Source: an uncultured Bacteroidales bacterium
GTDB taxonomy: Bacteria; Bacteroidota; Bacteroidia; Bacteroidales; Paludibacteraceae
DNA: 32,165 bases
NCBI GenBank assembly: GCA_903912795.1
Contig: CAIWIS010000793.1
Span: 1 to 32,165 of the forward strand
Reading direction: 5' to 3'
Of the stretch, positions 4,187 through 26,303 are shown piece after piece. Position numbers and translations under genes: made by a program. Position 1 is the first letter of the stretch; each line of letters opens with the position of its first letter. The notes below the pieces were generated by a model. It was not told the DNA's origin, ran no database searches, and worked only from the letters and a program-made list of their open reading frames with translations.

Positions 4187-5168
4187 AACCAATTATTTCA
4201 CGCACTTCGCGAATGGTTTTGGCAGCGCTTTCTTGTGCTTTTTCCTTGCCTAATTGTGCTACGCGCGATACATACGCTTGGTCGGACGAAATGGCTTTAA
4301 TCCGCTCGCGCATTGGCTCCGTGAATGCTATCATATCTAGAGCCAATTGTTTTTTCATGTCGCCATAGCGAATTTGGCAAGTGTTGTATTGCTCCTCAAA
4401 AAACGACAGTGTATCTGTTGCCGATACCACTTTCATAAGCTGAAATATATTCTGGATGGCATCGGGTTTTGGCTGATTAGGTTCTGTTGGTCCGCTATCG
4501 GTGACAGCTTTCATAACCTTTTTGCGTATAGCTTCAGGCTCGTCGGCAAAATAAATTGCATTGCCTTCGCCTTCGGATTTTCCCATTTTGCCACTACCAT
4601 TTAATCCAGGTATTTTTACCAATTCGTTTCCGAAATTAAATGCTTGGGGTTCTGGAAAATAATCTACATTAAACATTCGGTTAAATCGATTTCCAAATGT
4701 GCGTGTCATTTCCAAATGTTGTTCCTGATCCTTGCCTACAGGTACTTTTGATGCTTTGTGTATCAAAATATCGGCAGCCATAAGCGTAGGATAAGTCAAC
4801 AAGCCTGCATTTACATTTTGTGGTTGCTGGCGAATTTTATCTTTAAACGAGGTGCAACGCTCCAACTCACCAATATAAGCATTCATATTGAGAAACAAAT
4901 ATAATTCAGCCACTTCGGGCACATCACTTTGTATATAAAGTGTCGCTTTTTCGGGGTCAAGACCAGCAGCAAGGTATTCAACCAAAATCTGTTTTACATT
5001 TCCATGCAAATCTTGGGGTGTAGGATGTGTGGTAAGCGAATGATAATCGGCTATAAAAAAATAGCAATTATGCTCGTTTTGCATGGTTAAGAAATTGCGC
5101 AACGCGCCAAAATAATTTCCGAGATGTAAATTCCCGGTTGGGCGAATGCCGCTTACTACTGTTTCCAT
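4173..5168 (-). CDS. trpS: Tryptophanyl-tRNA synthetase
   Basis: SGIRPTGNLHLGNYFGALRN and GSGKMGKSEGEGNAIYFADEPEAIRKKV (KMSKS-like). Confidence 0.96.
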   Translation of the reverse strand: METVVSGIRPTGNLHLGNYFGALRNFLTMQNEHNCYFFIADYHSLTTHPTPQDLHGNVKQILVEYLAAGLDPEKATLYIQSDVPEVAELYLFLNMNAYIGELERCTSFKDKIRQQPQNVNAGLLTYPTLMAADILIHKASKVPVGKDQEQHLEMTRTFGNRFNRMFNVDYFPEPQAFNFGNELVKIPGLNGSGKMGKSEGEGNAIYFADEPEAIRKKVMKAVTDSGPTEPNQPKPDAIQNIFQLMKVVSATDTLSFFEEQYNTCQIRYGDMKKQLALDMIAFTEPMRERIKAISSDQAYVSRVAQLGKEKAQESAAKTIREVREIIGFKRF

Positions 5169-5174
5169 TAAAAG

Positions 5175-5202
5175 TTAGAAATTGGAAATTAGAAATTAGA
5201 AA
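5175..5202 (+). repeat. 4 x 7-nt tandem repeat (TTAGAAA/TTGGAAA) next to the trpS start
   Basis: TTAGAAA TTGGAAA TTAGAAA TTAGAAA. Confidence 0.75.
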
Positions 5203-5220
5203 AATAAGAAATTTAATAAC

Positions 5221-5354
5221 GTACGAAGCACCTAACAACGCACGAAGTGCTAATAACACGAAGCTAATAACGGCGAAGCCCAATTAACGCACGAAGTGCA
5301 AAATAACGGCGAAGCCCCATTAACGCACGAAGTGCAAAATAAAGTGCGAAGCAC
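5221..5354 (+). repeat. GAA-triloop mini-hairpin array A (8 units)
   Basis: gtacgaagcac, gcacgaagtgc, cacgaagc, ggcgaagcc, gcacgaagtgc, ggcgaagcc, gcacgaagtgc, gtgcgaagcac, separated by AT-rich (n)TAA-containing spacers. Confidence 0.9.
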
Positions 5355-5810
5355 CTATTCAATAGGTACGGTGCGTTTAATACGTTGGTCGAGTGAGGTA
5401 AGTGTCTCAGTGGAAGCAACACCAGGAATTTCCTGAATACGACCATTGAGAAGTTCCATAAGGTGCTCATCGTTTTTGGCATATAATTTTACCAAAATGG
5501 TGTAATGTCCCAACGTATATTGCGACTCAACAATTTCGGGGATTTGTTCCAACTGATTAACAACTTCCTTGTACATAGAACCACGCTCAAGCGTAATACC
5601 CACATAAACACACATTTGGAAGCCCAACATTTTAGGATTAACATTGTAGCCCGAACCTGTAATAACATCCAAATCAATAAGTCGCTGAACGCGTTGATGA
5701 ATAGCTGCACGCGAAACACCACACTCTTCGGCTACATCCTTAAAAGGCATGCGTGCATTTTGAGTGATAATACGTAATATTTTACGATCTAGTTGATCAA
5801 TCTTTTCCAT
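5355..5810 (-). CDS. Lrp/AsnC family transcriptional regulator
   Basis: LDRKILRIITQNARMPFKDVAEECGVSRAAIHQRVQRLIDLDVITGSGYNVNPKMLG plus an RAM-like C-terminal domain. Confidence 0.93.
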   Translation of the reverse strand: MEKIDQLDRKILRIITQNARMPFKDVAEECGVSRAAIHQRVQRLIDLDVITGSGYNVNPKMLGFQMCVYVGITLERGSMYKEVVNQLEQIPEIVESQYTLGHYTILVKLYAKNDEHLMELLNGRIQEIPGVASTETLTSLDQRIKRTVPIE

Positions 5811-5827
5811 AATATTTTTTTTAAATT

Positions 5828-5855
5828 GTCAGAAGTCGAGAGTCTGAGGTCAAAT
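5828..5855 (+). repeat. 4 x 7-nt GTC-initiated microrepeat upstream of the AsnC-family gene
   Basis: GTCAGAA GTCGAGA GTCTGAG GTCAAAT. Confidence 0.6.
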
Positions 5856-6022
5856 GACCATGGCCGTCAAAAACAAAACCATTATCTCGAATTTAGACAT
5901 TATCCATTTGTCTTTTCTTTCATTTCGGCAGCAAAAATACTGAAAAATACGAAATAGTGAAAGCTATTACACACAAAATAACTATTTAACCATGCATTTT
6001 GCTATAAATATGACTTTAATTG

Positions 6023-7192
6023 TCAATTTCGGGGAGGATTTTTCTTTAAAGTTACAAAATCGTTTCGTTTTCCTGCAAAAATATCATAACAATTGTACCA
6101 ACATTCAAGAGTGCCATTTAGTAAATTAATACGACTGGATGATTTTAGTCCAATTTTATCCAGACATTCGATGTGCGAGCTAATTAACCAACACTTTGAA
6201 CCCTGAAATTTATGTTTAAAGGTAGAGCCTATTGAGGCATATAATCCTAAAATATCATCGGAAGTGATACGTTCGCCATAAGGAGGGTTAGTAACCAACA
6301 AGCATCCTTCGGATGGAGTTACAACATATTTGATGCCTTTTACTTCCAAACTAATGTATTTGGTTAAACCAGCACTTTTCACATTCTGCTCGCTAATACC
6401 GATGGCACGTTGCGAAATATCCGAACCATATATTTTGAAATTGAAAGGACGTTCGTTGGAATCGTCGTGATATATTTCGTCGAAAAGCTCTTGATCAAAA
6501 TCGAGCCATTTTTCGAAACCAAACGATGACCGATACAAGCCAGGAGGAATATTTAATGCAATTAATGCCGCTTCGATCAACAAAGTTCCAGAGCCACACA
6601 TTGGATCAATAAAATCGCTTTTCCCATCCCATCCAGCCATGAGCAACATACCAGCAGCCAAAGCTTCGTTGAGTGGAGCTTCGTTTTGCGAAATACGATA
6701 GCCACGTTTATGAAGCGAGTCGCCTGAGCTATCGAGCAATACAGTACAACGTGTACCCGCAATGTGAATGTGGATGGTGAGGTGTGGATTGTCTAATTTT
6801 ACCGAAGGACGGTCGCCGGTTTTATCGCGAAACCAATCAACAATTGCATCTTTTACACGATAGGACACAAATTTTGAATGCTTAAACTCTTCCGAATAAA
6901 CGGTGGCTTCGATAGCAAAAGTTGTTTTCAACGACATAAAGTCGAGCCAATTAATGTCTTTCACCTTATCGTACACTTCATCGGCATCTTTAGCCGTAAA
7001 TGTAGTAATGGTTTTAAGCACACGCGATGCAGTACGCAAATGCATGTTGGCTTTGTACATCAAGGCTTTATCACCTGTAAAACTAACAGCTCTGCGCTGT
7101 AATTCTACATTATTAGCACCTAATTTTACCAACTCTGTAGCCAGTACTTCTTCCAAACCCATAAAGGTTTTGGCAATCATTTCGTATTCCAT
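6023..7192 (-). CDS. THUMP-domain class I SAM-dependent RNA methyltransferase (RlmL/YpsC-like)
   Basis: GWDGKSDFIDPMCGSGTLLIEAALIALNIPPG and LLVTNPPYGER (NPPY) motifs; N-terminal THUMP-like region. Confidence 0.92.
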   Translation of the reverse strand: MEYEMIAKTFMGLEEVLATELVKLGANNVELQRRAVSFTGDKALMYKANMHLRTASRVLKTITTFTAKDADEVYDKVKDINWLDFMSLKTTFAIEATVYSEEFKHSKFVSYRVKDAIVDWFRDKTGDRPSVKLDNPHLTIHIHIAGTRCTVLLDSSGDSLHKRGYRISQNEAPLNEALAAGMLLMAGWDGKSDFIDPMCGSGTLLIEAALIALNIPPGLYRSSFGFEKWLDFDQELFDEIYHDDSNERPFNFKIYGSDISQRAIGISEQNVKSAGLTKYISLEVKGIKYVVTPSEGCLLVTNPPYGERITSDDILGLYASIGSTFKHKFQGSKCWLISSHIECLDKIGLKSSSRINLLNGTLECWYNCYDIFAGKRNDFVTLKKNPPRN

Positions 7193-7212
7193 CTATTTTT
7201 TTTTGTTATTTG

Positions 7213-7393
7213 GGCTTCGCCGTTATTTGGCACTTCGTGCGTTAATATAGGCTTCGCCGTTAATAGTGCTTTGCACGTTAATTGGCACTTCGTGCGTTAA
7301 TATAGGCTTCGCCGTTATTAGCTTCGCGTTATTTGGCACTTCGTGCGTTATTTGCATTGCGTTATTAGGTGCTTCGCACGTTAATAGCTTCGC
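7213..7393 (-). repeat. GAA-triloop mini-hairpin array B (11 units; GAA on the minus, coding strand)
   Basis: Plus strand shows ggcttcgcc, gcacttcgtgc, ggcttcgcc, gtgctttgcac, gcacttcgtgc, ggcttcgcc, gcttcgc, gcacttcgtgc, gcattgc, gtgcttcgcac, gcttcgc. Confidence 0.9.
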
Positions 7394-7425
7394 ATTATTT
7401 AATTTCTAATATCTTCATGTTTTCT

Positions 7426-7465
7426 TCTCATCATCACATTACCATATCATCACATTATCTCATCA
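7426..7465 (-). repeat. 5 x 8-nt tandem repeat overlapping the cysE stop codon
   Basis: Minus strand: TGATGAGA TAATGTGA TGATATGG TAATGTGA TGATGAGA. Confidence 0.85.
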
Positions 7466-8335
7466 CTTCCTCTGCACAATCTTAGCTCCGGGAGCCACAT
7501 CGGTATCAACCCAGATATTACCTCCAATAATAGCACCTTCGCCTACGGTAATTGTACCCAATATGGTTGAATTAGAGTAAATAACTACATTATCGTTGAT
7601 ACGAGGATGGCGTTGAATGCCTTTTATAGGGTTTCCATTTTCGTCCAGCGGAAAACTTTTAGCACCCAAGGTAACGCCCTGATACATTTTTACATTTTCA
7701 CCAATAATAGCTGTTTCGCCTATAACTACACCTGTACCATGGTCAATAGTAAAATAATTACCAATGGTTGCTCCGGGATGTATATCTATGCCCGTTTCGG
7801 AATGTGCAATTTCGGTAATAATGCGTGGGATAAGTGGTACGTTGAGTTTCAAAAGCTCATTAGCAATACGATAGCTACTTATTGCGCGTAAACCAGGATA
7901 GCAAAAAATTACTTCACCAAAACTTTTGGCTGCGGGATCGCCATTAAATGCGGCAATAACATCAGTATGTAATTTCTCACGAATAATTGGTAATTGCGAA
8001 ATAAATTCGATGGCTTTTTCTTTGGATTGACGTTCAATTTCGGGACAAGGCTGCTCGTCGGCTCCTTTGTCGAACGATAAACCAGCTTTGATTTGCGAAG
8101 TTAGTAAAAACTGTAACCTATCAACATTAACACCAATGTGATACAACATGGTTTTGGAATTAACGGCAGCATTTCCAAAATATCCCGGAAACAGTATTGA
8201 ACGAATGAGTTTTACAATTTCGTTGAGTACATCAACCGATGGCATTGGTGTAAGCTCATTATGCTGATGACAAACATCTTTGAATCCGTTAATGTCGGAT
8301 AAAGTTTTTACTATGTCTAAAAGTTTCTTATTCAT
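7463..8335 (-). CDS. cysE: Serine O-acetyltransferase (start trimmed to MNKKLLDIVKTL)
   Basis: Left-handed beta-helix hexapeptide pattern: TGIDIHPGATIGNYFTIDHGTGVVIGETAIIGENVKMYQGVTLGAKSF. The longer tracked start translates the tandem repeat at 8343-8370. Confidence 0.93.
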   Translation of the reverse strand: MNKKLLDIVKTLSDINGFKDVCHQHNELTPMPSVDVLNEIVKLIRSILFPGYFGNAAVNSKTMLYHIGVNVDRLQFLLTSQIKAGLSFDKGADEQPCPEIERQSKEKAIEFISQLPIIREKLHTDVIAAFNGDPAAKSFGEVIFCYPGLRAISSYRIANELLKLNVPLIPRIITEIAHSETGIDIHPGATIGNYFTIDHGTGVVIGETAIIGENVKMYQGVTLGAKSFPLDENGNPIKGIQRHPRINDNVVIYSNSTILGTITVGEGAIIGGNIWVDTDVAPGAKIVQRK

Positions 8336-10771: not shown

Positions 10772-12823
10772 TTATCTGAAAATCTTAATAATTTCGCTAC
10801 TATTGTTGTCTGCTACTTTTAAAAAGTAAAATCCTGGTTTTGTGAGATGAATTGAAGCTACAGGTGAGTTGTGTTGGCCAGCCTGAATTACTTGACCACT
10901 GGCATTGAATAAAGTCAAATATGCATTTTTTGGTATATTTTGAACATTCAGCGTGCTAAATTGTACATTCCATGCAACTTTTCGTTTCACATTTCGAGCC
11001 GTATTTGTAGTGATATCGGTATGTGCTTTAATCTGATTCGACTCAGTTGGATTAGTAATTCCTTGTGGTTTAACGGTGAAATAATAGGTTGAGTCAGTGT
11101 TTAGTCCTGTTATTGTATAGGTTGTGGTATTTCCAACTGGTTTAGGAAAGGTGTTTTCAACAACACGATACATAATGGGGATAAGCTCTTCCACTTTTAG
11201 GTAGTCAATATATACCCTTTTGCCAGCTATGGCCGAAAATGCTAGCACAGTGTTGGCGGTTTTGGGAGATATATCAATTGTAAATGTTTGGTTAGCAACA
11301 GCTGTTGTCCATACGGTTTGTTCAATATTATTAGCAGTAAAAGTAAGTTTTGCTCCAGTGTCAGATGAATACTGACGTGCTTTTACAGTAATGCGCGCTC
11401 CATTTTCGCTCAGATTCATAGGTTCTATACTCAATTTGCCGTAGGTGCTTGTTGACCCTAACTTAAAATTGCTTGCTGTGGCTTGGTCGGTATAACCTTC
11501 GCGCGACCAAGTGTTCGAAATGGTGAATATAAATTCCTCGTCCACTTTGGTTACCGCATTAAATGTACCCGTGGGTCGAAGTGAAAACACATTCAGTTCA
11601 TAGCTTGTAGCGCCATTAGCAATAGTCCAATTGGCATCAAAACCTGTAGAACGTATGTTGGTTGCTGGTAATGCAACAAAGGCATCTGATATTTCTGTTT
11701 TCAGTTTTACCGAAAGTGCATTTATACCGCCTCCGGACACATTTAGAAATGCAGATTTCATTCCAGCTTGCTGTCCGCTTACAGTTATTATAAGTTCGGT
11801 ACCCGCTTCAGCCTCCGCTTTCGGAATACTATTGCGCGACAAAGTATAATTTGCTGCATTTGTGCCACTCAACGAAAAATTTAATTGTCCAGTCAGGTTA
11901 TTGGCTTTAATTGGGATATTAAATGTAATTGGCTTTTGAACGTAAACTAAAGGTGTAGTTACACTATCGTTGTTATCGGGATAATTGAGATAAGGGAAAC
12001 TGACTGATCCGTTCTCGGTAAAGGGCATCGTTATGCGGTTTCCCCAAACATATTCGGCCATAAGCGGAAAATCGATGTATGGATTTCGATTACCTTGAAT
12101 ACTGTAGATTATGTTGTTTCGATTAGTTTCTTTTGTGCTCACAGGATCTTGTCTACTCCATTGCAACAATAAATCCATAGCCCATTTTTCAAAAACAGGG
12201 TAGGTGTTATTGTCCAATTGATGTTCCGAATCTGCTGTCCAAAGTGGGGCGTAATCTTCGTAAGCCGTTACCATATACATATAAACACGTGCAAAATCGC
12301 CTTTGTATTCATCGGTCGGCTCCCATGCCGATAGTAAATAGCCTGCTTTTTGTTTGGTTTTGCCCACTTTTATCACGCCATTGGTATAGGTAAGGGTTGA
12401 GTCAATAACCGACATAACAAAAGCACTTTTGCGCTGGTTAGCAGTAGCGTCGGACGGGTTGAGATGGTGTAAGTCTTTATAGGCTTGTGTTTCGGTGCCG
12501 CCCCACCAACTTTTGGCAAACGAATGTTCGATGTTCATACCTGTAACAGCCAAATTGCCATTGAAAACACGAACCACATCCGAATACATATCCCAAATTG
12601 AGCCATCGGTAGGACGTACATCTGTTTGCACAAAACCCGACCATGTTTTCCCATCGCCACCACCGTAACTGAGCACTGTGGCTGTTTTAATTTTTTGGTG
12701 TAATGCCGTTTTTAGAGATGACTTTTTAAGTCCCACTGCAGTGCTGTAATAGCCTAATGGGATTTGAGAATAGCTTGTAATCGAAATTACAAGTAAGAAT
12801 ACAAGATTCTTAAATTTAAACAT
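10772..12823 (-). CDS. Secreted endonuclease I family protein with accessory domains and T9SS-like C-terminal sorting tail
   Basis: Signal peptide; NIEHSFAKSWWGG...DLHHLNPSDATANQRKS...QGNRNPYIDFP; C-terminal GFYFLKVADNNSSEIIKIFR. Confidence 0.88.
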   Translation of the reverse strand: MFKFKNLVFLLVISITSYSQIPLGYYSTAVGLKKSSLKTALHQKIKTATVLSYGGGDGKTWSGFVQTDVRPTDGSIWDMYSDVVRVFNGNLAVTGMNIEHSFAKSWWGGTETQAYKDLHHLNPSDATANQRKSAFVMSVIDSTLTYTNGVIKVGKTKQKAGYLLSAWEPTDEYKGDFARVYMYMVTAYEDYAPLWTADSEHQLDNNTYPVFEKWAMDLLLQWSRQDPVSTKETNRNNIIYSIQGNRNPYIDFPLMAEYVWGNRITMPFTENGSVSFPYLNYPDNNDSVTTPLVYVQKPITFNIPIKANNLTGQLNFSLSGTNAANYTLSRNSIPKAEAEAGTELIITVSGQQAGMKSAFLNVSGGGINALSVKLKTEISDAFVALPATNIRSTGFDANWTIANGATSYELNVFSLRPTGTFNAVTKVDEEFIFTISNTWSREGYTDQATASNFKLGSTSTYGKLSIEPMNLSENGARITVKARQYSSDTGAKLTFTANNIEQTVWTTAVANQTFTIDISPKTANTVLAFSAIAGKRVYIDYLKVEELIPIMYRVVENTFPKPVGNTTTYTITGLNTDSTYYFTVKPQGITNPTESNQIKAHTDITTNTARNVKRKVAWNVQFSTLNVQNIPKNAYLTLFNASGQVIQAGQHNSPVASIHLTKPGFYFLKVADNNSSEIIKIFR

Positions 12824-13008
12824 TTTGTTTCAGTTATTACAGCTTTTCACACTGCCATTCTTTTTATTATTCTGAAACAAATAAAAAATCAAGCAAGATA
12901 TAGTGGTGTATGTATTTTCAAGATAAAAAGAGCAAAGACAAAAGACAAAAAACAAGTACTCGAAACCTTTTTTGTTATTACAAATAACAAATCCATATGC
13001 AGAAAGTT

Positions 13009-15054
13009 TTAGTAAACTACTTTTAGACTGACCGTATAACTACTTGTCATAATTTGAATAAAATAAACTCCTTTTGTTGTAAGACTTAGAATTGTATTTT
13101 CATTGTTACATATAATTGTATTAATTCGTTTTCCGGAAATATCCGAAACTAAAATTTTGCAACTGTGCGGAAGCCCTGTTAAAAACACTCCATTGGACGA
13201 TTTACTCCAGCTTATTGTATTGCCATTCAAATTAGGTAATGCGTTAGCGAGCAATGTTTTAACCAGAACCGGATCGGTTTTAATACTTGAATTATTTTGC
13301 GGACTTACAGTATAATAATAACTTGAGTCGGGTAGCAAACCTAAAACATCGTATTGCAAAATATTACCTACATTTTTGGGGTAGCCACTTACAGATATTT
13401 CAGTTTGAACGGCTCCAACTGTTTCCACTTTTACATTGTCCAAATAAACTCTACTGCTTGCATTGGCGGCAAATGCGATTTTGGAATTGGCTGTTGCCTT
13501 TGGTATATTTACTGTATAGGTTTGGGCGGTGCTGCTAGTATTCCATAAAGCTAACGGATTTCCATCTAAAGTTACTGTGAGTGGAGCACCTGTATCCGTA
13601 TTGTATTGTTTTGCACGTACGGTGAGTAAATTTCCATCCGTAGCCAAATTAAGTGCAGGTGTAGTTAATTTTCCATTTGAACTCGACGAGGCAATACGCA
13701 TAAAACCTGTTGTCTGATTATCGGTATAGCCTTCGCTCAGCCAGCTAGTTGGTAATCCAGAAGCAAACTCTTCTTCGAGTAGGGTTTTGGTCTGAGTTGA
13801 ACCGGAGCTTTTCAGCGAGTAAACATTTAAATCATACCCAGTAGCCGTTGCCGAGCTGGTCCATTTGGCAGTAAAGCTATTTGAAGTTATATTCGTAGCA
13901 GCTAAAGCCATAAAATTATCGGTAGTTTGTGCTGTTAAATTAAGTGTAGTAGGACTAATTCCGCCACCCGAAATTAATAATTGCGCAGTATGTGTTCCTA
14001 TTGTTTGAGTGTTATAAGTTAGGGTGAGAACATAGCCTGTTTCAGCTTCGGTTTTAGTAAGTGTAGTTTTAGAAATACTAAAAAGGGATGCGTTAGTTCC
14101 TGAAATTGAAAGTGATAGTTCTCCTGTTAGGTTTGCTCCTTTAATTGTAACTTCAATGTTCTTAGTTTGTTGATATGCCATTTTTCCTAAATCAAGAGTT
14201 GTAGCATTAATAGGACTTGTCAGATAGGGCGTAGTGGTATTTCCATTCGGATCAAATGGTAGATTTGTGAATTTCCCCCAAATATATTCGCCCAAAATTG
14301 GATAATCAATATAGGGATTGCGGTTTCCTTGTACTTTATAAACTTCGTTGTGACGTGTAATTTCTTTTTGACTTAATGGGTCTTGAGCGTTCCATTTTAG
14401 CAATAAATCTACCGTCCATTGTTCAAAAACCGGATATGTATTATTATTTAGTTGATTTACCGAATTTCCTGTCCAAAGTGTAGCATAATCTTCGTAAGCA
14501 GTAACCATATACATATACATACGTGCAAAATCACCTTTATAATCGTCGGCTGGTTCCCACGCATCAATAACACCACCTGGCCTACTGCTCGATTTGCCAA
14601 CTTTAATAACTCCATTACTGTATGTGGTAGAGCCATCAACTACGGCCATAGGCCAACTCCCTTTTGCACTGTTTGCTGTTGTGTTAGATGGGCACAAATG
14701 CTGCACATCCTGAGCGGCCTGACGGCCATCGCCCCACCAACTTTTAGCAAACGAATGTTCAATATTCATACCGCTTGCAGCCGAATTGCCATTAAAAGCC
14801 ACGTGATTATTCGAATACATATCCCAAACAGTGCCATCCTCGGGGCGTACATCCGATTTAGCAAATACCGACCAAGTGCTACCGGAGCCACTACCATAAC
14901 TCGGAACATTGGCAGTTTTGATTTTTAAATGCAAAGCAGTTTTAAGTTCAGCCTGCTTTTTACCAATTGCAGAGTCGTAATATCCAGTAGGGATTTGCGC
15001 CAGTACAGTAAACACCAGCAGCATGTAAAGTTGAAAAAAGAAAAGTCGTTTCAT
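13009..15054 (-). CDS. Secreted endonuclease I family protein, paralog 2, T9SS-like C-terminal tail
   Basis: NIEHSFAKSWWGDGRQAAQDVQHLCPSNTTANSAKG...VQGNRNPYIDYP; same layout as 10772..12823. Confidence 0.88.
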   Translation of the reverse strand: MKRLFFFQLYMLLVFTVLAQIPTGYYDSAIGKKQAELKTALHLKIKTANVPSYGSGSGSTWSVFAKSDVRPEDGTVWDMYSNNHVAFNGNSAASGMNIEHSFAKSWWGDGRQAAQDVQHLCPSNTTANSAKGSWPMAVVDGSTTYSNGVIKVGKSSSRPGGVIDAWEPADDYKGDFARMYMYMVTAYEDYATLWTGNSVNQLNNNTYPVFEQWTVDLLLKWNAQDPLSQKEITRHNEVYKVQGNRNPYIDYPILGEYIWGKFTNLPFDPNGNTTTPYLTSPINATTLDLGKMAYQQTKNIEVTIKGANLTGELSLSISGTNASLFSISKTTLTKTEAETGYVLTLTYNTQTIGTHTAQLLISGGGISPTTLNLTAQTTDNFMALAATNITSNSFTAKWTSSATATGYDLNVYSLKSSGSTQTKTLLEEEFASGLPTSWLSEGYTDNQTTGFMRIASSSSNGKLTTPALNLATDGNLLTVRAKQYNTDTGAPLTVTLDGNPLALWNTSSTAQTYTVNIPKATANSKIAFAANASSRVYLDNVKVETVGAVQTEISVSGYPKNVGNILQYDVLGLLPDSSYYYTVSPQNNSSIKTDPVLVKTLLANALPNLNGNTISWSKSSNGVFLTGLPHSCKILVSDISGKRINTIICNNENTILSLTTKGVYFIQIMTSSYTVSLKVVY

Positions 15055-15132
15055 ATAAAACTATTATGCATTAAAAAAGAGAAAAAGCAACTCAATTTGC
15101 AATTTCTCTTTCCTTATTCTAATTGCTGATTA

Positions 15133-16185
15133 TTAATTATTTACCACAAATTTTTTAATCGATTTTCGATTGCCCATTTGTAGTTCAATAAAATACATAC
15201 CATCGTTGAGTTGTTCAATAGAAATGGTACCCGAAGTATTTAATTTTTTGCTCTCAACCAACATGCCATTGAGCGAAATTATGCGGTAAGTTGTATTTTG
15301 TTCGTCGGTTTTTACATTCAGAAATTTCGATGCAGGATTAGGCGAAACACTAAATTCAATTTTCAAATCATTTATGCCCGAGGTGATTGACCATGGAGTT
15401 CCTTTTTTGGTTCCCCAAATATGCTCTGCAAGCATTGGGTAGTCAATAAATGGGTTACGGTTTCCTTGGACACCCTGAGAAGCATTATTTCTATTTGTTT
15501 CTTTGCTGCTGACAGGGTCTTGTCTATGCCATTTTAGAAAAAGGGCTACGGAATATGTTGACAATCCGTTGTTAGGCCCATAAACAACATTTGCTCCAGA
15601 ACCCCAATTTTGACAAACACTGGCATAGCATGTTGCCATATATAAACAAGTTCTGGCTAGGTCACCTTTAAACTCATTTATAGGCTCAAATACTGTTCCG
15701 CTATATTCGGGCATACTTGAAGTTCCTAATTTTGAACCATTACCTGATGTGTAATTTGCCGATGCAACTTCACCATATGGATAATTTCCTCGCATGCCAT
15801 TTACTTTAGTGTCAGTGGGATATACATTAAAAATATCACTCACCATTGGAGACGCTTCTCCGAACCAACTTTGAGGCGTCGTGTGTTCCCGATTGTAATT
15901 TGTACATTCAGCACCTGTTGTACCATGGTTTTCATCAGTGCCATACGTGAAATTACAATTTGAATACATATCCCAAATTTTACCATTTGATGGGTTGATA
16001 TCTGTTTTGTTATATGCAGAATATAATCCTGAGTATGATGTGACGTTTGGATTTCCAATTATCGATGACAATGTTGTTCTAAGTAAATTGTCAGATTTTC
16101 CCACTGCATTATTGTAATAAGTTGGACTTGGTTGAGCAAATGCTAGAACTGGATATAGAATTAATAAAAGTAACAATTTACGCAT
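15133..16185 (-). CDS. Secreted endonuclease I family protein, short paralog 3, T9SS-like C-terminal tail
   Basis: NREHTTPQSWFGEASPMVSDIFNVYPTDTKVNGMRGNYPYGEV...QGNRNPFIDYP; C-terminal GMYFIELQMGNRKSIKKFVV. Confidence 0.92.
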   Translation of the reverse strand: MRKLLLLLILYPVLAFAQPSPTYYNNAVGKSDNLLRTTLSSIIGNPNVTSYSGLYSAYNKTDINPSNGKIWDMYSNCNFTYGTDENHGTTGAECTNYNREHTTPQSWFGEASPMVSDIFNVYPTDTKVNGMRGNYPYGEVASANYTSGNGSKLGTSSMPEYSGTVFEPINEFKGDLARTCLYMATCYASVCQNWGSGANVVYGPNNGLSTYSVALFLKWHRQDPVSSKETNRNNASQGVQGNRNPFIDYPMLAEHIWGTKKGTPWSITSGINDLKIEFSVSPNPASKFLNVKTDEQNTTYRIISLNGMLVESKKLNTSGTISIEQLNDGMYFIELQMGNRKSIKKFVVNN

Positions 16186-18082: not shown

Positions 18083-18110
18083 GATAAAAGAAATTAAACA
18101 ATAAACTAAC

Positions 18111-18178
18111 GCACGAAGTGCCCTTTAGCGGCGAAGCCCAAGTAAACGGCATAGCCCAAATAAAAACGCACGAAGTGC
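18111..18178 (+). repeat. GAA-triloop mini-hairpin array C (4 units) between rsmH and the ftsL-like gene
   Basis: gcacgaagtgc, ggcgaagcc, ggcatagcc, gcacgaagtgc. Confidence 0.88.
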
Positions 18179-18188
18179 CTACAAAAAA

Positions 18189-26188: not shown

Positions 26189-26195
26189 ATATAAC

Positions 26196-26297
26196 GGCAA
26201 AGCTTAATAACAATTAATAACGCACGAAGTGCAAATAACGGCGAAGCCCAACTAACGCACGAAGTGCCAAAATAACGTGAAGCTAATAACGCGAAGC
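26196..26297 (+). repeat. GAA-triloop mini-hairpin array D (6 units) between ftsW and murG
   Basis: ggcaaagct, gcacgaagtgc, ggcgaagcc, gcacgaagtgc, cgtgaagc, gcgaagc. Confidence 0.88.
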
Positions 26298-26303
26298 AAA
26301 AAA

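Follow-up and report, generated by a model that had tools for sequence, protein, structure and literature searches.

Tandem arrays of C-GNA-G mini-hairpins with alternating stems in operon gaps of Paludibacteraceae, a putative REP-like DNA repeat

The stretch of DNA analysed here (the window) comprises 32,165 nucleotides from an uncultured Bacteroidales bacterium. In this window a row of very short hairpins lies between trpS (PF00579) and an AsnC/Lrp gene (PF13404/PF01037), both located on the - strand. Is such a row a constrained structure, does the constraint act on DNA or on RNA, and to which kind of element does it belong?

Hairpin arrays of the window

Array A (5215–5354, + strand) consists of eight TAAC/AAC-linked C-GAA-G units, which direct reading and a hairpin scan placed at 5221–5231, 5240–5250, 5258–5264, 5272–5280, 5289–5299, 5308–5316, 5325–5335 and 5344–5354. 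From 5' to 3' their stems are GTAC (with one mismatch), GCAC, a closing pair only, GGC, GCAC, GGC, GCAC and GTGC. Thus, the tandem array described by the sequence-only reading was recovered: six of the eight CGAAG units are perfect hairpins (GCAC three times, GGC twice and GTGC once), while unit 5221–5231 (GTAC-GAA-GCAC) carries a single A.C mismatch and unit 5258–5264 retains the closing pair alone. When C-RNA-G hairpins (R = purine, N = any) with a stem of at least 3 were counted, the array contained six, compared with 0.11 on average and never more than 2 in 2000 dinucleotide shuffles. A covariance model of two units matched it at 5215–5250, 5252–5281, 5283–5317 and 5319–5354.

Being located on the + strand, array A is antisense to both trpS and asnC, and its last hairpin ends at 5354, directly against the asnC stop codon (asnC ORF, 5355–5810). 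On its 5' side there is a leader of tandem TTAGAAA-like heptamers (5168–5214, + strand) that starts from the trpS start codon; TRF placed the repeat, with a period of 7, at 5167–5202. On the - strand one terminator-like consensus match was found at the edge of the array, and the promoter and terminator scans revealed nothing useful. The Rfam search of positions 5100–7500, including arrays A and B, matched no family at E<=1, and no description of the array family was found in the literature searched, in agreement with the initial impression that this is not a named element.

Array A is one of four arrays of the C-GNA-G-type hairpin family in the window. Array B (7205–7399, - strand) has about 12 units, is oriented like the downstream gene of a THUMP/RlmL-type methyltransferase (6023–7192, - strand) and is preceded by a 5' leader (7400–7475, - strand) in which repeats of the GATAATGTG/GATGATATG type, each about 8 bases long, follow one another; its ortholog with other units was found in genome G004 (L335). 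Array C (18105–18187, + strand), between mraW and ftsL, contains three perfect C-GAA-G units and a variant unit, CGGCATAGCC. Array D (26195–26299, + strand), between ftsW and murG, ends about 10 nt 5' of the murG ATG (26310) and is absent from the ftsW-murG gap of G020, G004, G067 and G065 (L125–L127, L129). All 20 TAAC/AAAC-linked units of the window are intergenic, although its coding share is 88.6%.

It should be mentioned that the window also contains three adjacent ORFs of 683, 681 and 350 aa (10772–16185, - strand) which, judged by eye, have in common a secreted, endonuclease-I-like N-terminal part.

Covariation and alternation of stems

Throughout the arrays, a unit starts with a linker whose last three bases are AAC (usually CAAATAAC or CTAATAAC, of the form (C)AAATAAC) and continues with a stem of 2–4 bp, closed by a C-G pair around a triloop; the repeat period is mostly 14–19 nt. 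Stems are perfect in 332 of 417 units and belong to 16 types (GGC 100, GCAC 74, GTGC 68, GCCC 36, AGC 24, others rarer). The loops of these 417 units are mostly of the GNA type (GAA 258, GCA 42, GTA 36, GGA 2), and AAA (57) and ATA (14) are also present. Three elements are fixed: the linker with its AAC, the C-G pair that closes the stem, and the final A of the loop. Hence only a part of the supposedly invariant C-GAA-G core stood, namely the closing pair and the last loop base, while GAA itself is replaced by GCA, GTA, AAA and ATA.

Two variants were observed on this background. In L348 and L349 (G034) the period is about 25 nt and an additional AACTTCAAT linker lies between the hairpins. In L175, L176, L179, L158, L204 and L212, from several genomes, the palindrome CCTGCCTGCGGCAGGCAGG directly follows GGCGAA or GCACGAA within array hairpins, as though the loop had received an insertion.

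According to the published rule, DNA mini-hairpins of the d(GCGNAGC) type are extraordinarily stable if they have the form C-GNA-G and contain two or more G-C pairs (PMC4686876, which cites Hirao 1994 and Yoshizawa 1997). The array units follow this rule, apart from a minority with AAA/ATA loops or with a single G-C pair in the stem, and the sequence GGCGAAGCC includes GCGAAGC, which the sequence-only reading had rightly taken for a stable DNA mini-hairpin. The DNA parameters of ViennaRNA contain no GNA bonus, and the extra stability of the array hairpins is therefore based on the literature.

Comparison of 29 distinct units with 500 shuffles revealed strong covariation of the stems: paired cells amounted to 89.7% (67.3% in shuffles), the covariation score was 0.582 (0.170) and the number of double-change cells was 30 (9.2). 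No shuffle out of 500 was as high in any of these three values, and slid-structure controls were at most 40% paired. Therefore, the constraint is on the hairpin and not on the primary sequence, as had been supposed. Of the single stem mismatches in the 417 units, 8 were G.T and 11 were A.C. Since selection on an RNA copied from the array strand should favour G.U and G.T is not the commoner mismatch, nothing here points to RNA, and the data, in small numbers, fit a constraint at the DNA level.

The alternation of unit types noticed in array A proved to be highly significant and part of a general rule. Neighbours with the same stem occurred 10 times in the source genome G000, compared with 31.5 after permutation, 8 times in G067 (18.7), and not at all in G064 (7.2), G034 (4.6) and the other genomes (5.6); at the same time, units two apart were identical more often than in permuted arrays in all five genome sets. 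When distinct adjacent pairs were counted once, 13 out of 200 had the same stem, with 49.5 expected by permutation. This avoidance of identical neighbours is a new finding. It persists in 42 arrays without a repeated dimer (6 of 116 adjacent pairs, 16.9 permuted), so that duplication of dimers alone is not its obvious explanation. With DNA parameters, 34 of 43 arrays had less off-design pairing in the real than in the permuted unit order; with RNA parameters, 24 of 43 did. In our reading, either neighbours avoid exchanging arms or identical neighbours are unstable; instead of selection for folding, the alternation could reflect dimer-wise duplication or loss of identical neighbours.

Distribution, genomic context and turnover

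The source genome G000 is a metagenome-assembled genome of 4.66 Mb in 926 contigs, and dozens of arrays were found in it. The pattern TAACGCACGAAGTGC at no more than one mismatch gave 65 matches, TAACGGCGAAGCC gave 34 and AATAACGNNCGAAGNNC gave 70, with no match to any of the reversed patterns; this large genome-wide excess supports the sequence-only reading. The covariance model matched G000 131 times and was positive in 26 of 48 genomes of the genus, with 66 matches in G067, 31 in G064, 23 in G034, 17 in G004 and 15 in G020. Most database records in which these arrays occur bear the label Paludibacter or Porphyromonadaceae, and the two-unit pattern in GTDB also catches Proteiniphilum and rumen Clostridia. 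Two viral contigs matched this pattern, L221 without a surrounding array and L220 with few units only. Among 398 sampled genomes of other Bacteroidota, 31 contained one or few exact-unit matches, roughly as many as for the reversed control and mostly with unpaired stems; with counts at background level, the idea that the exact unit is widespread in Bacteroidota was rejected. The exact array family is essentially restricted to this genus and a few others.

Arrays of like architecture with ATATAAC linkers were revealed in one genome of Clostridia (Bacillota), G073. All 12 matches have perfect stems and GNA loops, the control gave no matches, 42 relatives contained no ATATAAC-linked arrays, and no Y1_Tnp gene was found in G073 itself. 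Several of its C-GNA-G arrays stand head-to-head, about 100 bp apart, in a REPIN-like manner (L402–L413). It is conceivable, though less likely than not, that the units are mutually orthogonal single-stranded DNA mini-hairpins selected for folding, each one following the C-GNA-G stability rule and differing from its neighbour so that no arms can be exchanged, that this design arose or spread in both Bacteroidota and Bacillota, and that it serves a single-strand-binding or HUH enzyme as a landing or processing site.

To describe the genomic context we used simple ORF calls in stretches of 12 genomes with 85 arrays in total; orthologous arrays among them are non-independent, which makes the p-value of this comparison optimistic. 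Seventy-eight arrays are located between co-directional genes, six between divergent genes and one between convergent genes; with a single convergent case in 85, they differ from intrinsic terminators, in which a GC-rich stem and a T run mark operon ends. In the co-directional gaps, 57 arrays are in sense and 21 in antisense orientation. The 3' end of sense arrays is located at a median distance of 19 nt from the start codon, and that of antisense arrays at a median of 6 nt from the stop codon. Strict polarity relative to the replication strand was rejected, as arrays A and B have opposite orientation only 2 kb apart. Many arrays have 7- or 8-base tandem repeats on the 5' side, almost never on the 3' side, with motifs such as TTAGAAA, AGTCAAA, GACAACR and GATRATGT (5167–5202 and 7426–7475 in the window; L047, L055, L059, L196).

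In the trp operon of G064 (L382) arrays occupy several gaps, before trpE- and trpG-like genes (names by eye), and the counterpart in G061 (L384) contains one array, at a different place.

These positions raise the possibility of intercistronic RNA elements, i.e., rows of hairpins with UAA-bearing A-rich linkers that would tune ribosome read-through, the start of translation or mRNA decay for the gene downstream. Such a role agrees with the concentration in co-directional gaps (78/85), with the sense majority (57/78) ending a median of 19 nt before start codons, with the repeated occupation of one trp operon in G064 and with the similar position near starts of TAACTGA heptamers, which were proposed to be translational (PMC4679880). 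However, 21 of the 78 arrays, including array A, are antisense to both genes and lie against a stop codon, G.T wobble pairs have no advantage over A.C, the same gap lacks an array in close relatives, and the unit order has no clear effect under RNA parameters (24/43). We consider RNA elements unlikely. The sense bias (57 vs 21), which they would also predict, counts against the REP-like interpretation given below.

Comparison of orthologous gaps revealed rapid turnover. In G065 the leader in the trpS-asnC gap is nearly identical to that of array A and the units are different; in G020, whose TrpS is 96% identical, the gap is about one base long, compared with 186 bp in the window; in G004 it contains unrelated sequence. 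More than 10 further gaps contain orthologous arrays with altered unit number and stems, flanked by coding DNA of roughly 74–87% identity. Perfect stems despite sequence change between such flanks indicate that the hairpins are maintained or renewed. Thus, it was shown that the arrays are inherited at orthologous gaps while their units change fast.

Renewal might require neither selection nor function nor an enzyme, if slippage produced the repeats and template switching at quasi-palindromes perfected their stems. Perfect stems without a wobble bias, local higher-order dimers with identity at lag 2, the rapid turnover of units at orthologous gaps and the confinement to gaps would all be expected from such a mutational by-product. 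Taken alone, however, it leaves unexplained why the linker and the C-GNA-G rule are kept across genomes, why identical neighbours are avoided even in arrays without repeated dimers and why leaders are placed 5', and in our opinion this origin is improbable.

Relation to Y1 transposases and to known repeats

Y1_Tnp (RAYT-like) genes are present in 40 of 48 genomes of the genus, four of them in G000. The density of C-GNA-G hairpins was 0.876 per kb at 111 non-redundant Y1 loci and 0.100 per kb at trpS/murG controls. One loop type occurred at least three times at 43 of the 111 loci, often with several compensated stems; examples of Y1 loci with C-GNA-G flanks are L069, L070, L073, L091, L263, L284, L298 and L310. 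Judging from these flanking sequences, C-GNA-G with compensated stems is a candidate rule for the recognition hairpins of the RAYT group of the genus.

By coordinates, no Y1_Tnp gene adjoins an array in G000, G002, G004, G012, G034, G060, G061, G064 and G067, and in G020 and G065, both incomplete metagenome-assembled genomes, arrays are present and Y1_Tnp was not detected. The Pfam model Y1_Tnp was used to look for a cognate transposase beside the arrays in the 48 genomes of the genus and in 13 more (partly overlapping sets; 111 non-redundant loci), and none was found. The link between arrays and RAYT is thus one of structural class. A TAAC-like tag precedes the hairpin at a few Y1 loci (L087, L226, L086, L032, L244). 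A 5' NAC tag as a general feature of Y1-flanking hairpins was rejected, as it is not enriched (4.4% vs 3.9%).

The hairpins of L032, L226, L086, L093, L236 and L244 have AATAT[ATC]AC-like tags, which would suit a MITE/REPIN-type element, decayed or mobile, in which leader and array were moved as a whole by a RAYT of the L032/L226 type. The precise filled and empty gaps (the asnC stop and the trpS start are 186 bp apart in the window and one base apart in G020) and the position of the leader on the 5' side also speak for it. Against it, the tag and the GNA loop are on the same strand in the arrays and on opposite strands in most of these tagged RAYT hairpins, no array adjoins any Y1 gene and the leaders are of several unrelated kinds. 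Transfer of this kind appears very unlikely.

We give about even chances to the interpretation of the arrays as selfish or semi-selfish DNA repeats of a REP-like kind, which consist of C-GNA-G mini-hairpins with an AAATAAC linker and would act by a putative ssDNA/HUH mechanism. According to this REP-like model, the hairpins would matter as single-stranded DNA, exposed in replication or repair, and in this form the array would grow and shrink largely as dimers of two different hairpins. A trans-acting HUH (Y1) nuclease, present or past, may recognise the 5' linker together with the hairpin. Alternating stems would allow each hairpin to fold alone, without arm exchange with its neighbour, and gaps between co-directional genes may be the sites where damage is least. 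For a retro-type intermediate, also suggested by the sequence-only reading, no evidence was found. The data point to an undescribed relative of the small palindromic repeats, in which ssDNA structure may be actively maintained.

Among known systems, the arrays behave most like a DNA repeat of the REP/BIME type, although two marks of membership, the tag and a linked transposase, are missing. Like GTAG-/CGTC-tagged REPs, they are high-copy, intergenic and palindromic; instead of the GT[AG]G/CGTC foot tag, all array loci examined have (A)TAAC at the foot. In RAYT-associated REPs (REPtrons) the copies flank the Y1/HUH gene, which the arrays do not. With REP/BIME (PMC2817692) they have in common mosaic arrays and alternating units; however, BIME units alternate in orientation, while array units face one way and alternate in stem sequence, with occasional head-to-head pairs only (L162, L164), and array stems are of 2–4 bp without a GTAG foot. 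TAACTGA heptamers, which were described in Beggiatoaceae, Cyanobacteria and Bacteroidetes and proposed to be translational elements near start codons (PMC4679880), are likewise intergenic and tandem, contain TAA in the unit, are mostly directed forward just upstream of starts and, as with the arrays, are in some cases reversed against a stop codon. They are seven-base direct repeats without hairpin units or covarying or alternating stems, and thus closer to the heptamer leaders than to the arrays.

Bacteroidetes TnpA_Y1 genes of subclass 2.6 are flanked by atypical secondary structures (PMC6006769), namely short intergenic hairpins without GT[AG]G, with weak stems and several variants per genome. 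The Y1 genes of the genus resemble this subclass in that their flanks contain C-GNA-G mini-hairpins whose stems vary with compensation, and the arrays also consist of short C-GNA-G hairpins with variable stems; they differ in being tandem, with a period of 14–19 nt and AAATAAC linkers, and in occupying dozens of operon gaps away from Y1 genes. By structural class, the 'atypical' structures of this Bacteroidetes RAYT subclass thereby receive a concrete rule at the sequence level.

Finally, the d(GCGNAGC) hairpins (PMC4686876) obey the same loop and closing rule, C-GNA-G, as a biophysical motif and not a genomic element; d(GCGAAGC) has until now belonged mainly to test-tube biophysics and aptamer design. 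Here the rule forms the conserved core both of a genomic element with many copies and, genus-wide, of Y1-flanking hairpins. The arrays are thus a natural system for asking whether such ssDNA hairpins form and serve in cells, and the avoidance of identical neighbours provides a quantitative, testable sign of folding independence or of dimer-wise amplification.
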